Assembly (NCBI GenBank): GCA_003252385.1
Contig: QKEH01000008.1
Span: 111,166-175,165, forward strand
DNA from: Bacteroidota bacterium
GTDB taxonomy: Bacteria; Bacteroidota; Bacteroidia; Bacteroidales; UBA10428
Reading direction: 5' to 3'
Length of the DNA stretch: 64,000 nt
The translations under genes and the position numbers were made by a program. The notes under the pieces were generated by a model. The model had not been told where the DNA came from. It ran no database searches and saw nothing but the letters and a program-made list of their open reading frames with translations. Positions 2,874 to 14,413 of this stretch are shown piece after piece (the first letter of the stretch is position 1; each line of letters starts with the position of its first letter).

Positions 2874-3383
2874 ATGTACACTATCCTGAGAACAACCGTT
2901 GCCACGCTGATACTGACGCTGACCTCGCTTACCCTGCAGGCGCATCCCATTCATGTATCGGTGGTGAATCTGGAATATCTTCCCGATTCGAACCGCATCG
3001 ATTTCTCCGTTCAGTTGTGTGCCGATGATCTGGAGAAAATTATCAATTACGAGTATCATACCTTGCTTACTTTTCACAATCGAAGCCGGCTAACCACCCA
3101 GGAGCAAGACGCTTTGGAGCGCTACATCCAAGCAAATTTCAGCATTCAGGCCAAAGGAATTTTACCCTCCCGGTTGCACAGCTGGGGACTGGATGAGGGT
3201 CAGGTGCGCCTGTATTTCAGCTGCCTGTCGCCATTAACTGTAGATAGTCTGGTGGTATCGAACACTTTTATGATAACTTACTTCCCCGACCAGGTGAACC
3301 TGTTAATCAGTCATTTTAAGAACACAGAAACAGGTGTCGAATTTAACAAAGGAACCACCTTACAAACCATTGTTTTTAAATGA
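2874..3383 (+). CDS. DUF6702 family exported protein
   Basis: A 169-residue protein with a clear signal peptide (about residues 1-23, cleavage after LQA). Directly after it comes HPIHVSVVNLEYLPDSNRIDFSVQLCADDLE, the characteristic start of the DUF6702 family (HP-x-HVS plus a beta-strand and a DDLE motif). Members are short exported proteins of Bacteroidota with no established role. The stop overlaps the next start in an ATGA arrangement, so translation is coupled to the large T9SS protein that follows. The gene therefore probably belongs to a small surface or secretion-linked operon. Confidence 0.75.
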   Translation: MYTILRTTVATLILTLTSLTLQAHPIHVSVVNLEYLPDSNRIDFSVQLCADDLEKIINYEYHTLLTFHNRSRLTTQEQDALERYIQANFSIQAKGILPSRLHSWGLDEGQVRLYFSCLSPLTVDSLVVSNTFMITYFPDQVNLLISHFKNTETGVEFNKGTTLQTIVFK

Positions 3384-5989
3384 GAGGAATAGGCAAAACC
3401 CTGCTCTTGTGGCTGCTTTGCGGGGCAACACTTTATGCGACCCATAACCGGGCCGGCGAAATAACTTACCGTCACCTTTCGGGCTATACCTACGAGGTTA
3501 CCGTAACCACCTATACCTATGCCTTAAGCAGTGCCAAACGTACCGAACTGATCGTTCAATGGGGCGATGGCACCGAAACAGAAGTACCCCTGCTGGATCC
3601 TCCGGGTTTTTATGCCATTCCGGGTACCGACTACCTCAAAAACATGTACGTGGCGCAACATACCTATGCAGGCAGCGGGGTATACGAAATACTTATGGAA
3701 GACCCCAACCGAAACCTGGGTGTAAACAATATTCCCAATTCCGTCAATACGATCTTCTCCATTAAAACCACCCTGTTCATTGGTTCCAACATTGGCTCCA
3801 ACAACACCCCGGTGCTGTTGAATCCGCCCATCGACCAGGCGGCATTGGGGCATCCTTTCATTCATAACCCGGCCGCTTTCGACCCCGATGGCGATAGCAT
3901 ATCCTATACCATAACCACCTGCACCGGAGCCGGCGGCGAAGCCATTGAGGGGTATCGCATTCCGGCCGCAACCGATACCCTGCTGGTAGATGCCCGAACC
4001 GGCGACCTGATGTGGCTGTCGCCACCCGTAGTGGGAAAATTCAATATTGCTATTCTGGTTGAAGAATGGCGCGATCAGATCCGCATTGGGCGCATTGCCC
4101 GCGATATGCAGATTGACGTTCACGAAACGGACAATAACCCACCGATAAATCCGAACCTGATTGATCTGTGTGTACGGGCCGGAGACACGATTAACCTGCA
4201 AATCAGAACCAGCGACCCCGACCAGGATCAGCTCAATCAAAGCCTGGTGGGAGGGCCTTTTGAGGTGACCAACCCAGCCGTATACAGCATTGACTCCTCG
4301 GGCTATGGCTGGATTAACTCCCATTTTCAGTGGATCACCCATTGTTCGCACGCCCGCCAGCAACCTTACACCCTGGTGCTTAAGACCGAAGATATTACGA
4401 ACGACATTAACCTGGTTTCCGTAACCAGCTTTACCATTCGGGTATTGCATTTGCCCCCCACCGGACTGGAAACGCATCCGGGATCGGATACCATCCGGCT
4501 GGAATGGACTCCCTCCAACTGCGGCACCCCTGCCGGCTACCGGATTTACCGGCGAACCGACAGCACCCAGTACCTTCCGGAAGCCTGCGAAACCGGCGTT
4601 CCGGCCCGCACCGGTTTTGTATTGATAGACCAGGTGGAAGGTGCAACGGCCCGTTCCTATACCGATAACAACGGAGGCAGTGGGCTGGTGCCCGGATTTG
4701 AATACTGCTATCGCATAACTGCCTATTACAACGATGGAGCAGAGAGCATCAGTTCCGAAGAGATTTGCAGCCATCTTGAACCTGGAAATCCTCCCTTGTT
4801 GCGGGTCAGCGTTGCCGCCGACGATGAAACCGCAGGCCAAATTGAGCTGGCTTGGGCAGTTCCCCGTGGCGACGACATTATGGACGATGGCCCCTATCGA
4901 TATGAAATTTTGCGAATGGCACCGGGCGAAACTACACTGCGCCCGATTTTCACCCAACAGGCATCTCCCAATCTATTCGACACCACTTTCACCGACCGGA
5001 GCATCAACACCCGGATATACCCCTACACCTATTCGGTAATCCTTCAATACGAAGAGGGCGGCACCTGGCACAATGCACCGGGTAACGAAATGGCAACTTC
5101 GCAATACATCAGTACTGCAGGTGCGGACAACACCGTAACCCTGACCATGAAAAAAAGAGCCCCCTGGCTGAATCAACCTTACGAAATGTACCGTGCAGCA
5201 ACGGACAGTTTTATGCATATTGGCAGTACCCTTAATGCCACCTACACCGACCGAAATCTGAGAAACAACACTACCTATACGTACCGAAGTGTAGCCAAAT
5301 CGGTTCGTCCCCTTTATGGAATGAACTTTACCATGGAGAACACCTCGCATCTGGCCTCCGAAATGCCAGTAGATACCCTTTCGCCTTGCGATGTGGAACT
5401 TTACGTGCGCTCCGATTGCGACAGTGTACGCGGTTTCAACCTGCTGAGCTGGCAGCGAGCCAGTGACAGTTGTTCCAACCAGGATGTGGTGAACTACATT
5501 ATTTACAGCCGCGACTCGTTGGAAGGCAAATTGTTTGCTTTGGACACCCTTGCTCCCACAGTTTTTGAATATCTGGACTACCCCAAGAACTCGATTGAAC
5601 AATGCTACGCCATAACCGCCATCGATTCGGCCGGTAACGAAAGTACGCCCTTGCCTTATTGCGTGTACAATATTTGCAGCTTCTACCGTTTACCCAATGT
5701 ATTTACCCCCAACGGAGATGCTATCAACGACATCTACACCTCCTGGAATCTGAACGGTTATGTTAAGAAAGTGGATATGAGTATTTTTAACCGTTATGGC
5801 CAGAAGCTGTATACCACCACCAATGCGAATATCGACTGGAACGGCACCTACAACAATAAGCTGGTTAGTTCCGGAGTCTATTACTACATCTGCGATGTGT
5901 ATGAACCAACAATCAGAGGGTCCCACCTCACAACCTTAACCGGATTTATACATGTTTATTCTGGAACCGACAACACACCCCCTCAATGA
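3380..5989 (+). CDS. Large surface protein with fibronectin-III-like repeats and T9SS type B (gliding-motility-associated) C-terminal domain
   Basis: An 869-residue exported protein. A signal peptide of about 20 residues is followed by a beta-rich N-terminal region with PKD-like character (IVQWGDGTET) and an acidic strand-rich module (AAFDPDGDSISYTI). Several fibronectin-III-like modules follow from about residue 360 to 770, each ending in strands such as YCYRITAYYND and YTYRSVAK. The C-terminal ~85 residues (PNVFTPNGDAINDIY onward, then FNRYGQKLY and SGVYYYICDVY) are the CHU_C / type B sorting domain used by the type IX secretion system. The protein is thus probably exported across the outer membrane and displayed or released. 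It overlaps both neighbours by 4 bp. Its ligand is unknown. Confidence 0.87.
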   Translation: MRGIGKTLLLWLLCGATLYATHNRAGEITYRHLSGYTYEVTVTTYTYALSSAKRTELIVQWGDGTETEVPLLDPPGFYAIPGTDYLKNMYVAQHTYAGSGVYEILMEDPNRNLGVNNIPNSVNTIFSIKTTLFIGSNIGSNNTPVLLNPPIDQAALGHPFIHNPAAFDPDGDSISYTITTCTGAGGEAIEGYRIPAATDTLLVDARTGDLMWLSPPVVGKFNIAILVEEWRDQIRIGRIARDMQIDVHETDNNPPINPNLIDLCVRAGDTINLQIRTSDPDQDQLNQSLVGGPFEVTNPAVYSIDSSGYGWINSHFQWITHCSHARQQPYTLVLKTEDITNDINLVSVTSFTIRVLHLPPTGLETHPGSDTIRLEWTPSNCGTPAGYRIYRRTDSTQYLPEACETGVPARTGFVLIDQVEGATARSYTDNNGGSGLVPGFEYCYRITAYYNDGAESISSEEICSHLEPGNPPLLRVSVAADDETAGQIELAWAVPRGDDIMDDGPYRYEILRMAPGETTLRPIFTQQASPNLFDTTFTDRSINTRIYPYTYSVILQYEEGGTWHNAPGNEMATSQYISTAGADNTVTLTMKKRAPWLNQPYEMYRAATDSFMHIGSTLNATYTDRNLRNNTTYTYRSVAKSVRPLYGMNFTMENTSHLASEMPVDTLSPCDVELYVRSDCDSVRGFNLLSWQRASDSCSNQDVVNYIIYSRDSLEGKLFALDTLAPTVFEYLDYPKNSIEQCYAITAIDSAGNESTPLPYCVYNICSFYRLPNVFTPNGDAINDIYTSWNLNGYVKKVDMSIFNRYGQKLYTTTNANIDWNGTYNNKLVSSGVYYYICDVYEPTIRGSHLTTLTGFIHVYSGTDNTPPQ

Positions 5990-7875: not shown

Positions 7876-10032
7876 TTAATTGCTCAATTGATTAAGCGAT
7901 AAAGCGGTTCCATAGGCTACCAGATGTTGCGATGGAATGGATCTCGGTAGCTCCAGAAGTTCAAATCCCTTTTCGGTGAAAATTTTTTGTAAGGATTTGT
8001 GGCGGCCAACTCCTCCGACCAGTACAAGAGGGAAGTCCGTGTTTGTTTCTGGAGGCAATAGTTTAATTGCCTGGGTTGCAATGTATTGATACACTCCGCT
8101 TAGGATTTCTTTTCTGCGGCTTATTTCGGACTGAATTAAGGCAGAGACCACATTGGTTACGGCAAATATTCCACAGGTTGTATTAATCAATTCACTTTTT
8201 TTGGCATTTAACGCCATCTGATCAATATCATCAAAAGTAATATCCGGATTAGATTGCTTCCACCTTTCCAGGATTTGCACCAAAACCATGCCTGTTCCGG
8301 CTCCGCAACTTTTATTTGTGTTAATCCAGGGTGCTTGATCTTGAGCATGAAATTTCAGTACCTTAACATCTTGTGTTCCAATGTCAATTACCATAAATTG
8401 TTTTAAATGCCCGAATAAGCTTTTAACGGCTAAAATAAGTGCATTAATTTCTGTTGTTTGGTTGTGTACCTGACTTATTAATTGGGTGTTATCGCTACCA
8501 ACACCGGCTAAGGCAAAGTTGATATCGCTATGTTCACCCAGGTCATCTTTTATTTCTTTGAGCAAGTGCGGATAGTCAATACCTGAGGTAAATAATCCTT
8601 GTTGGATTACCTTATTATCTCGGTTTATGGCTAAATACTTACTAAAACCGCTTCCAAAGTCGATACCTACGCGCACTTCAGGAATGCACGCGCTTAGGTT
8701 ATTCAATGTGATATCTCCATCCATGGGTAGGTGTTTCTTTTTTGGACTCAATTCCGACAAGAATGTACCCAACCTTAAACCCGTTGGTCCTTTGGGCATA
8801 CCCAGAATTACATCTCCACTGATGGATACAAATTTTAAATTCATCTTTGAAGCCTGGTTTTCGTATTCGGTTAACCTGGCTGCAAGCATTTGACAATGCT
8901 CATGCGAAAATATAATAATCCCTTTGGCTCCGGAATCCACGGCATTTTTCAGGAAAATATCAGCTTTCTCTGTGAAATTTAATCCACGAACCGGTGCATT
9001 AATGAGCTGAAGAGCCATATTTTCAAATATCTCTGAATCGGACATTGAAACCACCTTTTCAGCTTCAGGTAATTCAATTTCACCCAGATAATTAACCCCT
9101 TCAAAAGTAAAATTAACATTGGCATCCTTGAGCTGTTGCCATACATCGGAGCGGCCGTAGGGAATTAACCCGAACATGGCCAAAGGTATTGCGTTATCCT
9201 TTTCGGGCTGATGCTTTAAGGAATCAATTCTGTTGATTAATTCAAGTTTTAAGCGATTGCATATCTTGTACCCTGATTCGTCACCCCAGAAAGGGGCAAA
9301 TTGTCCATGCCAATGCAAAGGTTCCATCCCCAGGTTTAAAGGCCCATGCGTCTTGCGAAGCTTGAGTATCTCAAGAAACTCAGTCTTTGCCCTTACGGAG
9401 TGATAGAATGTTTCGTGTAGTCTATTGGACGCATCTTCTTCTTTAATCGAGTTGATTTCGCATAATTTTTTAAACGTGTATTCAAGCTGTTGTGCCAATG
9501 CTTTTACGGCCAGTTTATCGTTAAAACCCGGAATGTCGAGATGGAAATTGGGGACATTAAAGTTTTCCGATAACTCACTTATCATATGGCTAATGCCTTC
9601 GCAAAAAGCTGAGGAGCTAATGGTTACATCAGGTACTGGGAGGATTTCCTCTCTAAAGGCGCCTTTTAGTGCATTTATAAAACTGCATCGAGGTACCGGA
9701 GCGCTGCCTTTATTGGTTAAATCAATAACTTTGGAGTGAAATGCAATAAGGCTTGAAAACATCTCCCAATTAAAGGGAATATAACCTGAGGCCCATAAAA
9801 GTTCTGAAGGAACCAGTAGTGAGTTTGCGGCTATTTTATAACCTGGTTTGTAAGCCATTCGAGTGATAAAGGCTCGTTTCGAAATAAGACTTTTGGTTGC
9901 AGCCAGTAAAGGCGGAGCAACAGAACTTAGTGTTGCGCCTTTTTGGTCGCTGTCTTCGGAGAATTTTCGTAAAGCTTCGTACGCGAGATCTCTTTTGTCC
10001 GACTGAATCGGTACAACTTCAGTATTCTTCAT
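7876..10032 (-). CDS. Fusion of a 2-hydroxyacyl-CoA dehydratase (HgdB/BcrC-like) subunit with its ATP-dependent activator (HgdC/BadF-like)
   Basis: A 718-residue two-part protein. Residues ~55-445 resemble the iron-sulfur dehydratase subunits of the HgdB/FldB/BcrC family. The three positions that usually bind the [4Fe-4S] cluster appear as cysteines: C116 (PRCSF), C144 (AFCEG) and C380 (HEHC). Residues ~453-718 are an ASKHA-fold activator with phosphate loops VGIDFGSG and VIDIGTQD, the SCGAGTG segment (C576), TCGIFAVTN (C620) and LVGGVGRHK. C576 and C620 match the two cysteines that hold the dimer-bridging cluster of HgdC. These modules are normally separate proteins. The family drives ATP-dependent low-potential electron transfer; the related double-cubane-cluster proteins are an alternative reading. 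No CoA-transferase or second dehydratase subunit lies nearby, so the substrate is unknown. It may be co-transcribed with the upstream chemoreceptor gene (154 bp gap). Confidence 0.8.
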   Translation of the reverse strand: MKNTEVVPIQSDKRDLAYEALRKFSEDSDQKGATLSSVAPPLLAATKSLISKRAFITRMAYKPGYKIAANSLLVPSELLWASGYIPFNWEMFSSLIAFHSKVIDLTNKGSAPVPRCSFINALKGAFREEILPVPDVTISSSAFCEGISHMISELSENFNVPNFHLDIPGFNDKLAVKALAQQLEYTFKKLCEINSIKEEDASNRLHETFYHSVRAKTEFLEILKLRKTHGPLNLGMEPLHWHGQFAPFWGDESGYKICNRLKLELINRIDSLKHQPEKDNAIPLAMFGLIPYGRSDVWQQLKDANVNFTFEGVNYLGEIELPEAEKVVSMSDSEIFENMALQLINAPVRGLNFTEKADIFLKNAVDSGAKGIIIFSHEHCQMLAARLTEYENQASKMNLKFVSISGDVILGMPKGPTGLRLGTFLSELSPKKKHLPMDGDITLNNLSACIPEVRVGIDFGSGFSKYLAINRDNKVIQQGLFTSGIDYPHLLKEIKDDLGEHSDINFALAGVGSDNTQLISQVHNQTTEINALILAVKSLFGHLKQFMVIDIGTQDVKVLKFHAQDQAPWINTNKSCGAGTGMVLVQILERWKQSNPDITFDDIDQMALNAKKSELINTTCGIFAVTNVVSALIQSEISRRKEILSGVYQYIATQAIKLLPPETNTDFPLVLVGGVGRHKSLQKIFTEKGFELLELPRSIPSQHLVAYGTALSLNQLSN

Positions 10033-10186: not shown

Positions 10187-11386
10187 TTAAAATTCTTCGA
10201 ATTCTACCCGGAGCGGCGATGATTGCTTAATTGCTGTACGGGGTATAAAATGATCCGAACCAGTTGTATTACCAATTTTGTTAAAAAAAGAAACGGTTTG
10301 AAGTAGTCCGCTGGATAAATTATTTAGTTTCGTAGAACTGGAAGCTAGTACCACCGAAGAATCTGCATTAGCTTGTGCTATTTGTGAAAGTTCCTGAATA
10401 CCACGTGATATTTCTATGGCTCCATTGTTTTGTTCCTGTGTAGCTGTTGATACTTCATTAAGTAAGTCTACAATTTGGTTAATTTGTGGCAAAATATCCT
10501 TTAACTTGCCTTCCGTATTATGAGTTGTTTTTACTCCGTGTTCTGTGTAGGTAATAATTTCATCGGCTGATTTTTTACTTCTTTCTGCCAGCTGCCTAAC
10601 TTCTGATGCAACAACGGCAAATCCTTTTCCTGATTCACCTGCTCGCGCCGCTTCAACAGCTGCATTTAGTGCCAGGATATTGGTTTGGAAAGCAATGTCA
10701 TTAATAACTTTTATCTTCTCGGAGATGGTGTTCATGGATTTTAAAGCTTCCGATGAGGAGCTACTTCCTTCTGAAACAACAGAAGCGGATTTGGATGCGA
10801 AATCTAGTGTTTTTAGGGTATTTGCTGCATTCTGGCTAATATTTGCAGCAATTTCTTCAATGCTCGATGAAATTTGTTCCGATGAGGCAGCTTGTTTATT
10901 GGATCCCTCCGATAATAAATTGGCAGAACTATTCAATTCCTGACTGGTTGAAGATAACTCCTCGGATATCTCCTGAATTTTACCTAATACCTTGATTAAA
11001 GTATCCTTTAAACTGTTAATGGAAGTGGATATTTCACCAAGTTCGTCAGTCCTGCTCAATATGCTCACATCAAATTCTGCTAACAAATCACCGTCCGATA
11101 GCCGATTGATTTTTTCTGTTAGTTTCTTGAGTGGGGTGCCTACCTTGGCTTTGGTGCGATAAAAAACAAAAAATAAAATACATACCGATACCGGAATAGC
11201 CCAGGCTAATTGGATAATTCCTTTGGCGCCGCAAATAAATGCAAAATCCGCTATTGCGGTAACAATCAGCATAAATGAACCACCCACCACTGATACTAGT
11301 GATTTTTTGAAAATAATTCGTAATACGGCATAGCATGACAAGCCGGCGATGGATATCAGTATTAATCCTAAGGTAAACTGACTCAT
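10187..11386 (-). CDS. Methyl-accepting chemotaxis protein without a periplasmic sensor domain
   Basis: A 399-residue chemoreceptor. The N-terminus holds three hydrophobic segments (about 4-22, 30-52, 58-77) with only very short loops, so there is no periplasmic ligand-binding domain. A HAMP-like region (about 78-130, [17 protein letters not shown]) follows, then a long coiled coil. The conserved hairpin tip that contacts CheA/CheW is present as [35 protein letters not shown]. The C-terminus has no NWETF-type CheR-tether pentapeptide. It should sense something in the membrane or cytoplasm, such as redox or energy state. It lies directly upstream of the fused iron-sulfur protein on the same strand, which suggests a link, but this is inference. 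Confidence 0.9.
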
Positions 11387-13483: not shown

Positions 13484-14413
13484 ATGCGTACTTTCCTTTT
13501 CACTCTGTTATTTCTGCTTAGCATTAATAATGCTTATTGCCAGTTGGAATGGGCTCCAATTGGTACCCAATGGTACTACAGCCACCCCCACCCCTGGAGT
13601 GGAAACCCTTTTTGGCGATACGACCTTTATACCTCAGAGAAAGATACCCTGATAAACGATAAAAGCTGTCGGGTAATACGTTGCATGGAGCAAACGGAAT
13701 ATATGCTATTAGAAGACAGCATTGTGTATTACTACCTTAAAGGAGAATTCCACCCCTTGTATGATTTCTCAAAGCAGGTAGGCGATACATCCATTATTCA
13801 TTTTAAAGGATATAATGTAACCGATACGATTGATTGTGCCTATGACACCTTTTATGTGGCAAGGGGAATCATAGAACGAATTGATACGATTTATGCCAAT
13901 GACCTTGCACTACGTTCCTTCCTTTCCAGGATAGAAGCAATTGATACTTCTCCTAGTGTTACAGAACTCATATGGCCAGGATTAATTAATTATATCGAAA
14001 GAATTGGTGTTCCTTACATGTTTATGCCTATGGTCGAACTCCCTAGCCTTGGACATATGCGCCACCTGCGCTGCTACAGCGATAATGACATTAATTATAT
14101 GAACCCATGGTGGGCGCAACACGAGAAACCCTGCGATTATGAGATACCGGATGCAATAGAGGAGAATAAATTATCTGAGTTATCCATATTTCCTAATCCC
14201 TCAACCGGTAAAATTACCATCTCAATGGATCAAACAACTTCCATCAGTAATATCTTGGTATACACGGCTACAGGTAATAGGGTTTATCAGAAAACCAGTA
14301 AGCAAAACCCGGTTGTGATTGATTTATCCCATTTACAAAGCGGCATTTATTACCTGGGGGTTATTTTGGAAAGTGGTTTTCAGGAATATCATAAGATAAT
14401 TATGGCTAAGTAG
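13484..14413 (+). CDS. Secreted hypothetical protein with T9SS type A sorting domain
   Basis: A 309-residue protein with a signal peptide (about 1-19, ending NNAYCQ) and a central region of ~200 residues that I do not recognise. Many tryptophans and tyrosines stand near its start (LEWAPIGTQWYYSHPHPW), an opening often seen in Bacteroidota T9SS cargo proteins. The C-terminal ~75 residues (LSIFPNPSTGKITISMD to SGIYYLGVILESGFQEYHKIIMAK) are a type A sorting domain, with the PNP and G-x-Y motifs. It is therefore expected to be exported by the type IX secretion system and anchored to or released from the surface. No operon partner is present; the function is unknown. Confidence 0.82.
   Translation: MRTFLFTLLFLLSINNAYCQLEWAPIGTQWYYSHPHPWSGNPFWRYDLYTSEKDTLINDKSCRVIRCMEQTEYMLLEDSIVYYYLKGEFHPLYDFSKQVGDTSIIHFKGYNVTDTIDCAYDTFYVARGIIERIDTIYANDLALRSFLSRIEAIDTSPSVTELIWPGLINYIERIGVPYMFMPMVELPSLGHMRHLRCYSDNDINYMNPWWAQHEKPCDYEIPDAIEENKLSELSIFPNPSTGKITISMDQTTSISNILVYTATGNRVYQKTSKQNPVVIDLSHLQSGIYYLGVILESGFQEYHKIIMAK

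Follow-up and report, generated by a model that had tools for sequence, protein, structure and literature searches.

Energy-taxis receptors have been described that sense redox state through FAD-PAS domains (PMC2628428, PMC3558505, PMC12442639). In the CetA/CetB system, the membrane MCP has no sensor of its own and its partner is a discrete PAS protein in the cytosol (PMC2628428, PMC3558505), and CetA2/CetB2 of Magnetospirillum is a similar FAD-based pair (PMC12442639). For the HgdB/HgdC enzyme family, it is known that BzdO holds a [4Fe-4S]-OH2 cluster with three cysteines, its Glu65 contacting the cluster water, and that the double cubane of BzdN is held by six cysteines in one subunit (PMC11971306). 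Here we describe a locus in which an HgdB-like module and its HgdC-like activator are joined in one chain and encoded next to an MCP. It lies in a 64,000-nucleotide stretch of DNA from a member of the Bacteroidota, the whole of which is referred to below as the window. We found no description of this type of pair, an activase or dehydratase with a chemotaxis protein, in the open-access literature, although this does not prove that none exists.

An HgdB-like subunit and its activator in one intact chain

The fusion is encoded by an intact frame on the minus strand (Table 1). Pfam matched PF06050 (HGD-D) to its N-terminal domain with 62.6 bits, against a cut-off of 28.4, and PF01869 (BcrAD_BadFG) to its C-terminal domain with 51.0 bits, against a cut-off of 31.5. 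No other domain was recognised by Pfam in the chain, which thus has no PAS domain by this search. These results bear out the original prediction, made from the sequence of the window, that HgdB and HgdC modules are carried by a single chain. The cluster cysteines that it named (C116, C144, C380, C576 and C620) lie at exactly those positions and are invariant in all 13 members of the family described below. It had also reported that the second dehydratase subunit and a CoA-transferase were missing; we likewise found no other HgdB-like frame within the window and no CoA-transferase among the Pfam-scanned neighbours of the fusion. No beta subunit of the HadC/BzdN type was found at the fusion loci, each of which has one HgdB-like frame. 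The further suggestion that the protein may be a self-activating low-potential reductase is a reasonable reading of a fused HgdB-HgdC chain.

Table 1 Features of the fusion locus, in coordinates of the window
Feature	Position	Strand	Description
HgdB-HgdC fusion	7876..10032	minus	718 aa; intact frame from ATG at 10032 to stop at 7876, zero internal stops
HgdB-like domain	8758..9813	minus	residues 74-425; PF06050, invariant columns, alignment with HadB, MbdO and BzdO-type proteins
HgdB-like domain residues			E90, C116, C144, C380; fusion-specific H99, E145, H242, H379
Interdomain linker	8671..8757	minus	residues 426-454; length and sequence vary among members (alignment)
HgdC-like ATP-driven activase domain	7900..8670	minus	residues 455-711; PF01869, phmmer, invariant columns
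Activase domain motifs			DFGSG, DIGTQD, CGAGTG (C576), NTTCGIF (C620)
MCP	10187..11386	minus	399 aa; 154 bp upstream of fusion, same strand
MCP layout			HAMP and MCP signalling domains, three predicted TM helices; without a large sensor domain

The window genome encodes one BcrAD_BadFG protein in total. An AlphaFold model of the fusion (five sequences) had a mean pLDDT of 52 and a pTM of 0.47 and was set aside. PADLOC gave no match to the fusion, and its 14-bit match to the neighbouring MCP was rejected as coiled-coil noise; searches of viral and plasmid collections returned zero full-length relatives of the fusion. Elsewhere in the window, positions 3380-5989 and 13484-14413 carry signals for type IX secretion (CHU_C and Por_Secre_tail).

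The fusion is rare and patchily distributed

Whole-genome searches, together with one scan of named genomes, identified 12 fusion loci besides that of the window: G007, JAQUJY010000043 (L047), G641, G691 and eight from the family of G691. The 13 loci are not independent, because nine of them belong to one family. A fourteenth fusion, L048, is cut by a contig end and was left out of the 13. Where measured, the other fusions are 49-52% identical to the window copy, and the fusion is not a chimera of assembly, since it is found again in 12 further genomes. Two members are broken: the G691 gene is split by contig ends, and the frame of L047 is interrupted within the HgdB part (L047:8480-8540), by either a sequencing error or a real lesion. 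Among 392 genomes sampled from the order, the fusion was found in the window genome and two others, and among 297 genomes sampled from the phylum it was found in the window genome alone. The fusion is thus rare and patchily distributed, with the caveat on absence calls that nearly all of the genomes are MAG-like drafts; G724, discussed below, is a single contig.

The HgdB half resembles alpha-type subunits

When the HgdB half was aligned with its relatives, C116, C144 and C380 fell in columns common to HadB, MbdO, BzdO-type proteins, YjiM and others. E90 is invariant in the fusions, and its column, in what is a divergent alignment, holds the Glu of HadB, MbdO and the BzdO-type protein L042; in the aligned double-cubane and beta-type sequences this glutamate is absent or changed. 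Six further residues (H99, E145, H242, E311, E378 and H379) are common to the fusions and missing from the aligned relatives. The number of family-wide cysteines in the HgdB half is three across all 13 members, or four in 12 of the 13 when C408 is counted. Residue 408 (approximately positions 8809-8811) is Val in the window copy and Cys in the 12 other fusions, where it lies in the stretch GDCILGMP. Because the three family-wide cysteines and E90 match the pattern of BzdO and HadB, we read the HgdB half as probably alpha-type, with a candidate [4Fe-4S] cluster that has a water or hydroxide ligand, rather than as a double-cubane protein.

The original prediction had placed the fusion possibly closer to double-cubane-cluster proteins than to dehydratases, and in this respect it did not hold. 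NF040772 gave zero match to the fusion at E values up to 1, whereas the control, E. coli YjiM, scored 531 bits. A double cubane needs six cysteines (PMC11971306), as against the three that are family-wide here, and the alpha-type glutamate is present. Membership of the DCCP family was rejected on the missing match and the shortage of cysteines. In the phylogenetic comparison that had been proposed as a check, the HgdB halves of the fusions are monophyletic, forming one clade (support 100/100) on a stem of 3.28 changes per column, but the placement of this clade within the HgdB family is not fixed by the tree.

The activase half is related to those of unfused pairs

The activase half matches the solved activases 1hux (phmmer, 3e-12), 4eht, MbdQ and MbdP, and C576 and C620 align with the cysteines of the CxAGTG and TTC/STC motifs of solved activases. 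Its score against TIGR00241 is 84.7 bits, below the cut-off of 125.4 bits. In the tree, the activase halves are monophyletic (100/100), with a long stem of 1.98 changes per column. Their grouping with the activases of unfused hgdB-hgdC pairs from the same order has modest support (88/76) and lies inside a wider clade whose support is 98/95. The unfused-pair loci each contain one HgdB and one activase, and at several of them hgdB precedes hgdC, which is the domain order of the fusion. The fusion is not alone in having a single subunit, because the Bacteroidota activases nearest to it in the tree belong to such one-HgdB/one-activase pairs.

L073, the unfused locus that was examined closely, encodes two enzymes of the benzoyl-CoA pathway that score above their curated cut-offs: Oah, with 593 bits against 464, and Had, with 451 bits against 339. 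This locus (L073:2393-16992), together with L071, L072, L074, L076, L078 and L079, appears to be an anaerobic benzoyl-CoA degradation cluster from related Bacteroidota. Each of these clusters has a single HgdB-like gene and a single activase gene instead of the four-subunit BCR, and it is possible that they encode a minimal ATP-dependent benzoyl-CoA reductase. The marker gene of the pathway, oah, was not found above the cut-off in the fusion genomes G000, G007, G641 and G691, and a role of the fusion in aromatic degradation was rejected for these four, in which oah is below the cut-off or absent. The benzoyl-CoA pathway therefore does not explain the fusion.

A sensorless MCP adjoins the fusion

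A survey of gene neighbourhoods, which the original prediction had recommended, revealed a feature absent from it, a conserved chemoreceptor neighbour. In 12 of the 13 loci the fusion adjoins an MCP of approximately 370-410 aa, which has a signalling domain and TM helices predicted at its N-terminal end; the exception is G719, where an MCP relative (50% identical to the G711 copy) lies on a separate contig. Besides the MCP, no neighbour family is common to all 13 loci, and no other occurs in more than five. The pair is arranged in three ways. In nine loci the MCP follows the fusion on one strand, at a distance of -23 to 56 bp; in two the genes converge; and in one, the window locus, the MCP comes first and is followed by the fusion.

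In the window MCP, Pfam recognised PF00015 (127.6 bits) and PF00672 (33.6 bits). Three TM helices were predicted in each of the five MCPs tested, and of the first five linked MCPs scanned with Pfam, three had a HAMP domain that was recognised. Neither Pfam nor the TM estimate revealed a PAS domain or any large periplasmic domain in the MCP, the membrane part of which is better conserved than the HAMP and adaptation regions. Short sensorless MCPs with three TM helices are common in the fusion genomes, and most of them are not beside an enzyme. The fusion-linked MCPs belong to a group of eight with a support of 95/93, of which three members are other MCPs, and are not a strictly exclusive clade. 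Among short sensorless MCPs like L058 (L065, L114, L118 and L179), some lie beside single-domain response-regulator-like genes. The comparison suggests that the class of short sensorless MCPs may draw inputs from various partners.

The fusion is lost while the MCP persists

All 13 fusion genomes or loci carry an MCP of the linked type, and in four relatives (G724, G750, G752 and G748) it has been retained although the fusion is lost or decayed. In G724, 448 bp (L173:7620-8067) stand where G713 has the fusion, the surrounding gene order is preserved and the MCP shares 85% identity with that of G711. G748 retains a 349-aa remnant of the fusion (L176:8644-9693), which lacks the regions of C144, C380, C576 and C620, beside an MCP gene of intact length. 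In G750 and G752 the MCP is present, and no fusion was found either beside it or by a search of the genome. The dependence looks one-sided, in that the fusion occurs with the MCP and the MCP persists without the fusion. This pattern of loss is as expected if the fusion is an input module that feeds the MCP. Because the MCP persists without the fusion in four genomes, it may also have another input or role. The natural losses with the MCP kept offer ready-made comparisons. CheW domains were found in all four of the fusion genomes checked, including CheA-sized frames of 678-832 aa; as a base rate, 77 of 247 genomes from the order have CheW.

A candidate chemosensory unit and its alternatives

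We lean towards the view that the fusion and the adjacent MCP, which are linked in their gene order, form a two-protein chemosensory unit, in which the direction of signalling, the contact between the proteins and the substrate are all putative. Judging from its family, the HgdC half would bind ATP and one [4Fe-4S] cluster at the dimer interface, and the use of ATP would send one electron at low potential to the HgdB half in cis. The HgdB half, with its three cysteines and E90, would carry an alpha-type [4Fe-4S]-OH/OH2 cluster as in HadB and BzdO and would turn over or titrate some substrate or oxidant, so that its state would report the supply of low-potential electrons, ATP or the substrate. 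As the conserved linkage suggests, this state could reach the membrane MCP through a contact within or close to its membrane/HAMP region. MCPs signal through CheW and CheA, the genes for which are present, and the linked MCP would use the same route. It is possible, and we propose this more tentatively, that the pair represents a new class of chemoreceptor with an ATP-driven radical-enzyme module as its sensor, in which the very-low-potential [4Fe-4S] state of a self-activating HgdB-HgdC chain is read by a sensorless MCP; cells would then steer by the supply of low-potential electrons or by a molecule that is reducible only at such potentials.

The main rival to the receptor model is a plain metabolic enzyme, that is, a stand-alone homodimeric 2-hydroxyacyl-CoA dehydratase or CoA-ester reductase with a built-in activator, in which case the MCP would merely steer cells to the substrate or be co-regulated. 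Several features agree with it: the catalytic-type cluster cysteines and E90 are conserved, and such a glutamate fits an ordinary enzyme equally well; purifying selection on the fusion is strong, with dN/dS of approximately 0.03-0.04, although dS is near saturation; and the unfused pairs with which the activase half groups lie inside benzoyl-CoA degradation clusters. We nevertheless consider this explanation rather unlikely, as pathway genes, among them those for a CoA-transferase, a CoA ligase or a dehydrogenase, are not conserved at the 13 loci, where only the MCP is, and the tested fusion genomes do not have an above-cut-off oah. Moreover, an MCP free of a sensor domain would be unable to recognise the substrate alone, and the very long stems of both halves point to a changed role. 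The same linkage data could also be explained if the signal passes by way of metabolism, with the fusion making or removing a small molecule, or draining low-potential electrons, and the MCP reading the product or the energy state of the membrane. Metabolism-dependent taxis has reportedly been observed in a study of Campylobacter, and the convergent and swapped gene orders, together with the one unlinked case, do not call for a stoichiometric complex. However, Pfam recognised no candidate ligand-binding pocket in the MCP, and the tight linkage, mostly with short gaps, favours co-production, which makes this route improbable.

That the fusion is a DCCP-like double-cubane small-molecule reductase with its reductase fused to it seems very improbable. 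It belongs to the same superfamily, and DCCPs, too, are homodimeric with a single type of activase (PMC11971306), but the failure of NF040772 to match, the three family-wide cysteines (four with C408, which the window copy lacks) in place of six, and the alpha-type glutamate argue against this identity. We give the least credence to an incidental neighbourhood in which the MCP is a genomic hitchhiker. There are 9-26 MCPs per genome, and the nine loci from one family partly share synteny. Against this, the linkage is kept in several families, where it has outlasted approximately 50% divergence and occurs in three rearranged gene orders, and the chance of any MCP neighbour in four genomes is 0.5-1% per genome, giving a joint chance of adjacency of approximately 10^-8.5 if the four are treated as independent.

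Relation to known systems

If the receptor model is true, redox sensing would be extended to the very low potentials of the HgdB/HgdC enzyme family, which would be relevant to strict anaerobes. A catabolic enzyme family would have been recruited for signalling, and an activator that is normally separate and transient would have been joined permanently to its target.

Activases joined to further domains are known from the large proteins of approximately 1400 aa that occur in related genomes; in these, two BcrAD domains are N-terminal and accompanied by DUF2229, whereas the fusion has HgdB at its N terminus and one activase at its C terminus. DCCP/DCCP-R (E. coli YjiM/YjiL) resembles the fusion in its HgdB-like fold family, its one activase and its homodimeric state, but the DCCP genes are separate and the fusion has too few cysteines and no match to NF040772. 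With the activases HgdC, HadI, BzdQ and MbdQ, the C-terminal half shares the ASKHA ATPase family PF01869 and the cluster cysteines of CGAGTG and TTC; unlike them, it is fused to its target, lies below the TIGR00241 cut-off and has DIGTQD in place of DIGGQD. The alpha subunits of 2-hydroxyacyl-CoA dehydratases and class I benzoyl-CoA reductases (HadB, BzdO and MbdO) have in common with the fusion PF06050, three cluster cysteines, a catalytic-type glutamate and an ATP-driven activase. The fusion differs from them in having no beta subunit at its locus, its activator in cis and no CoA pathway genes nearby, and it is very divergent, with H99, H242, H379 and E145 as unique invariant residues.

In gene layout, with the contact between the two proteins putative, the fusion and its MCP are most readily likened to CetA/CetB: in both, a sensorless membrane MCP with HAMP and signalling domains adjoins a discrete redox protein, here in 12 of 13 loci. 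The fusion-linked MCP has three predicted TM helices and CetA has two, and the partner of the MCP is here an ATP-dependent Fe-S HgdB-HgdC fusion rather than an FAD-binding PAS protein.
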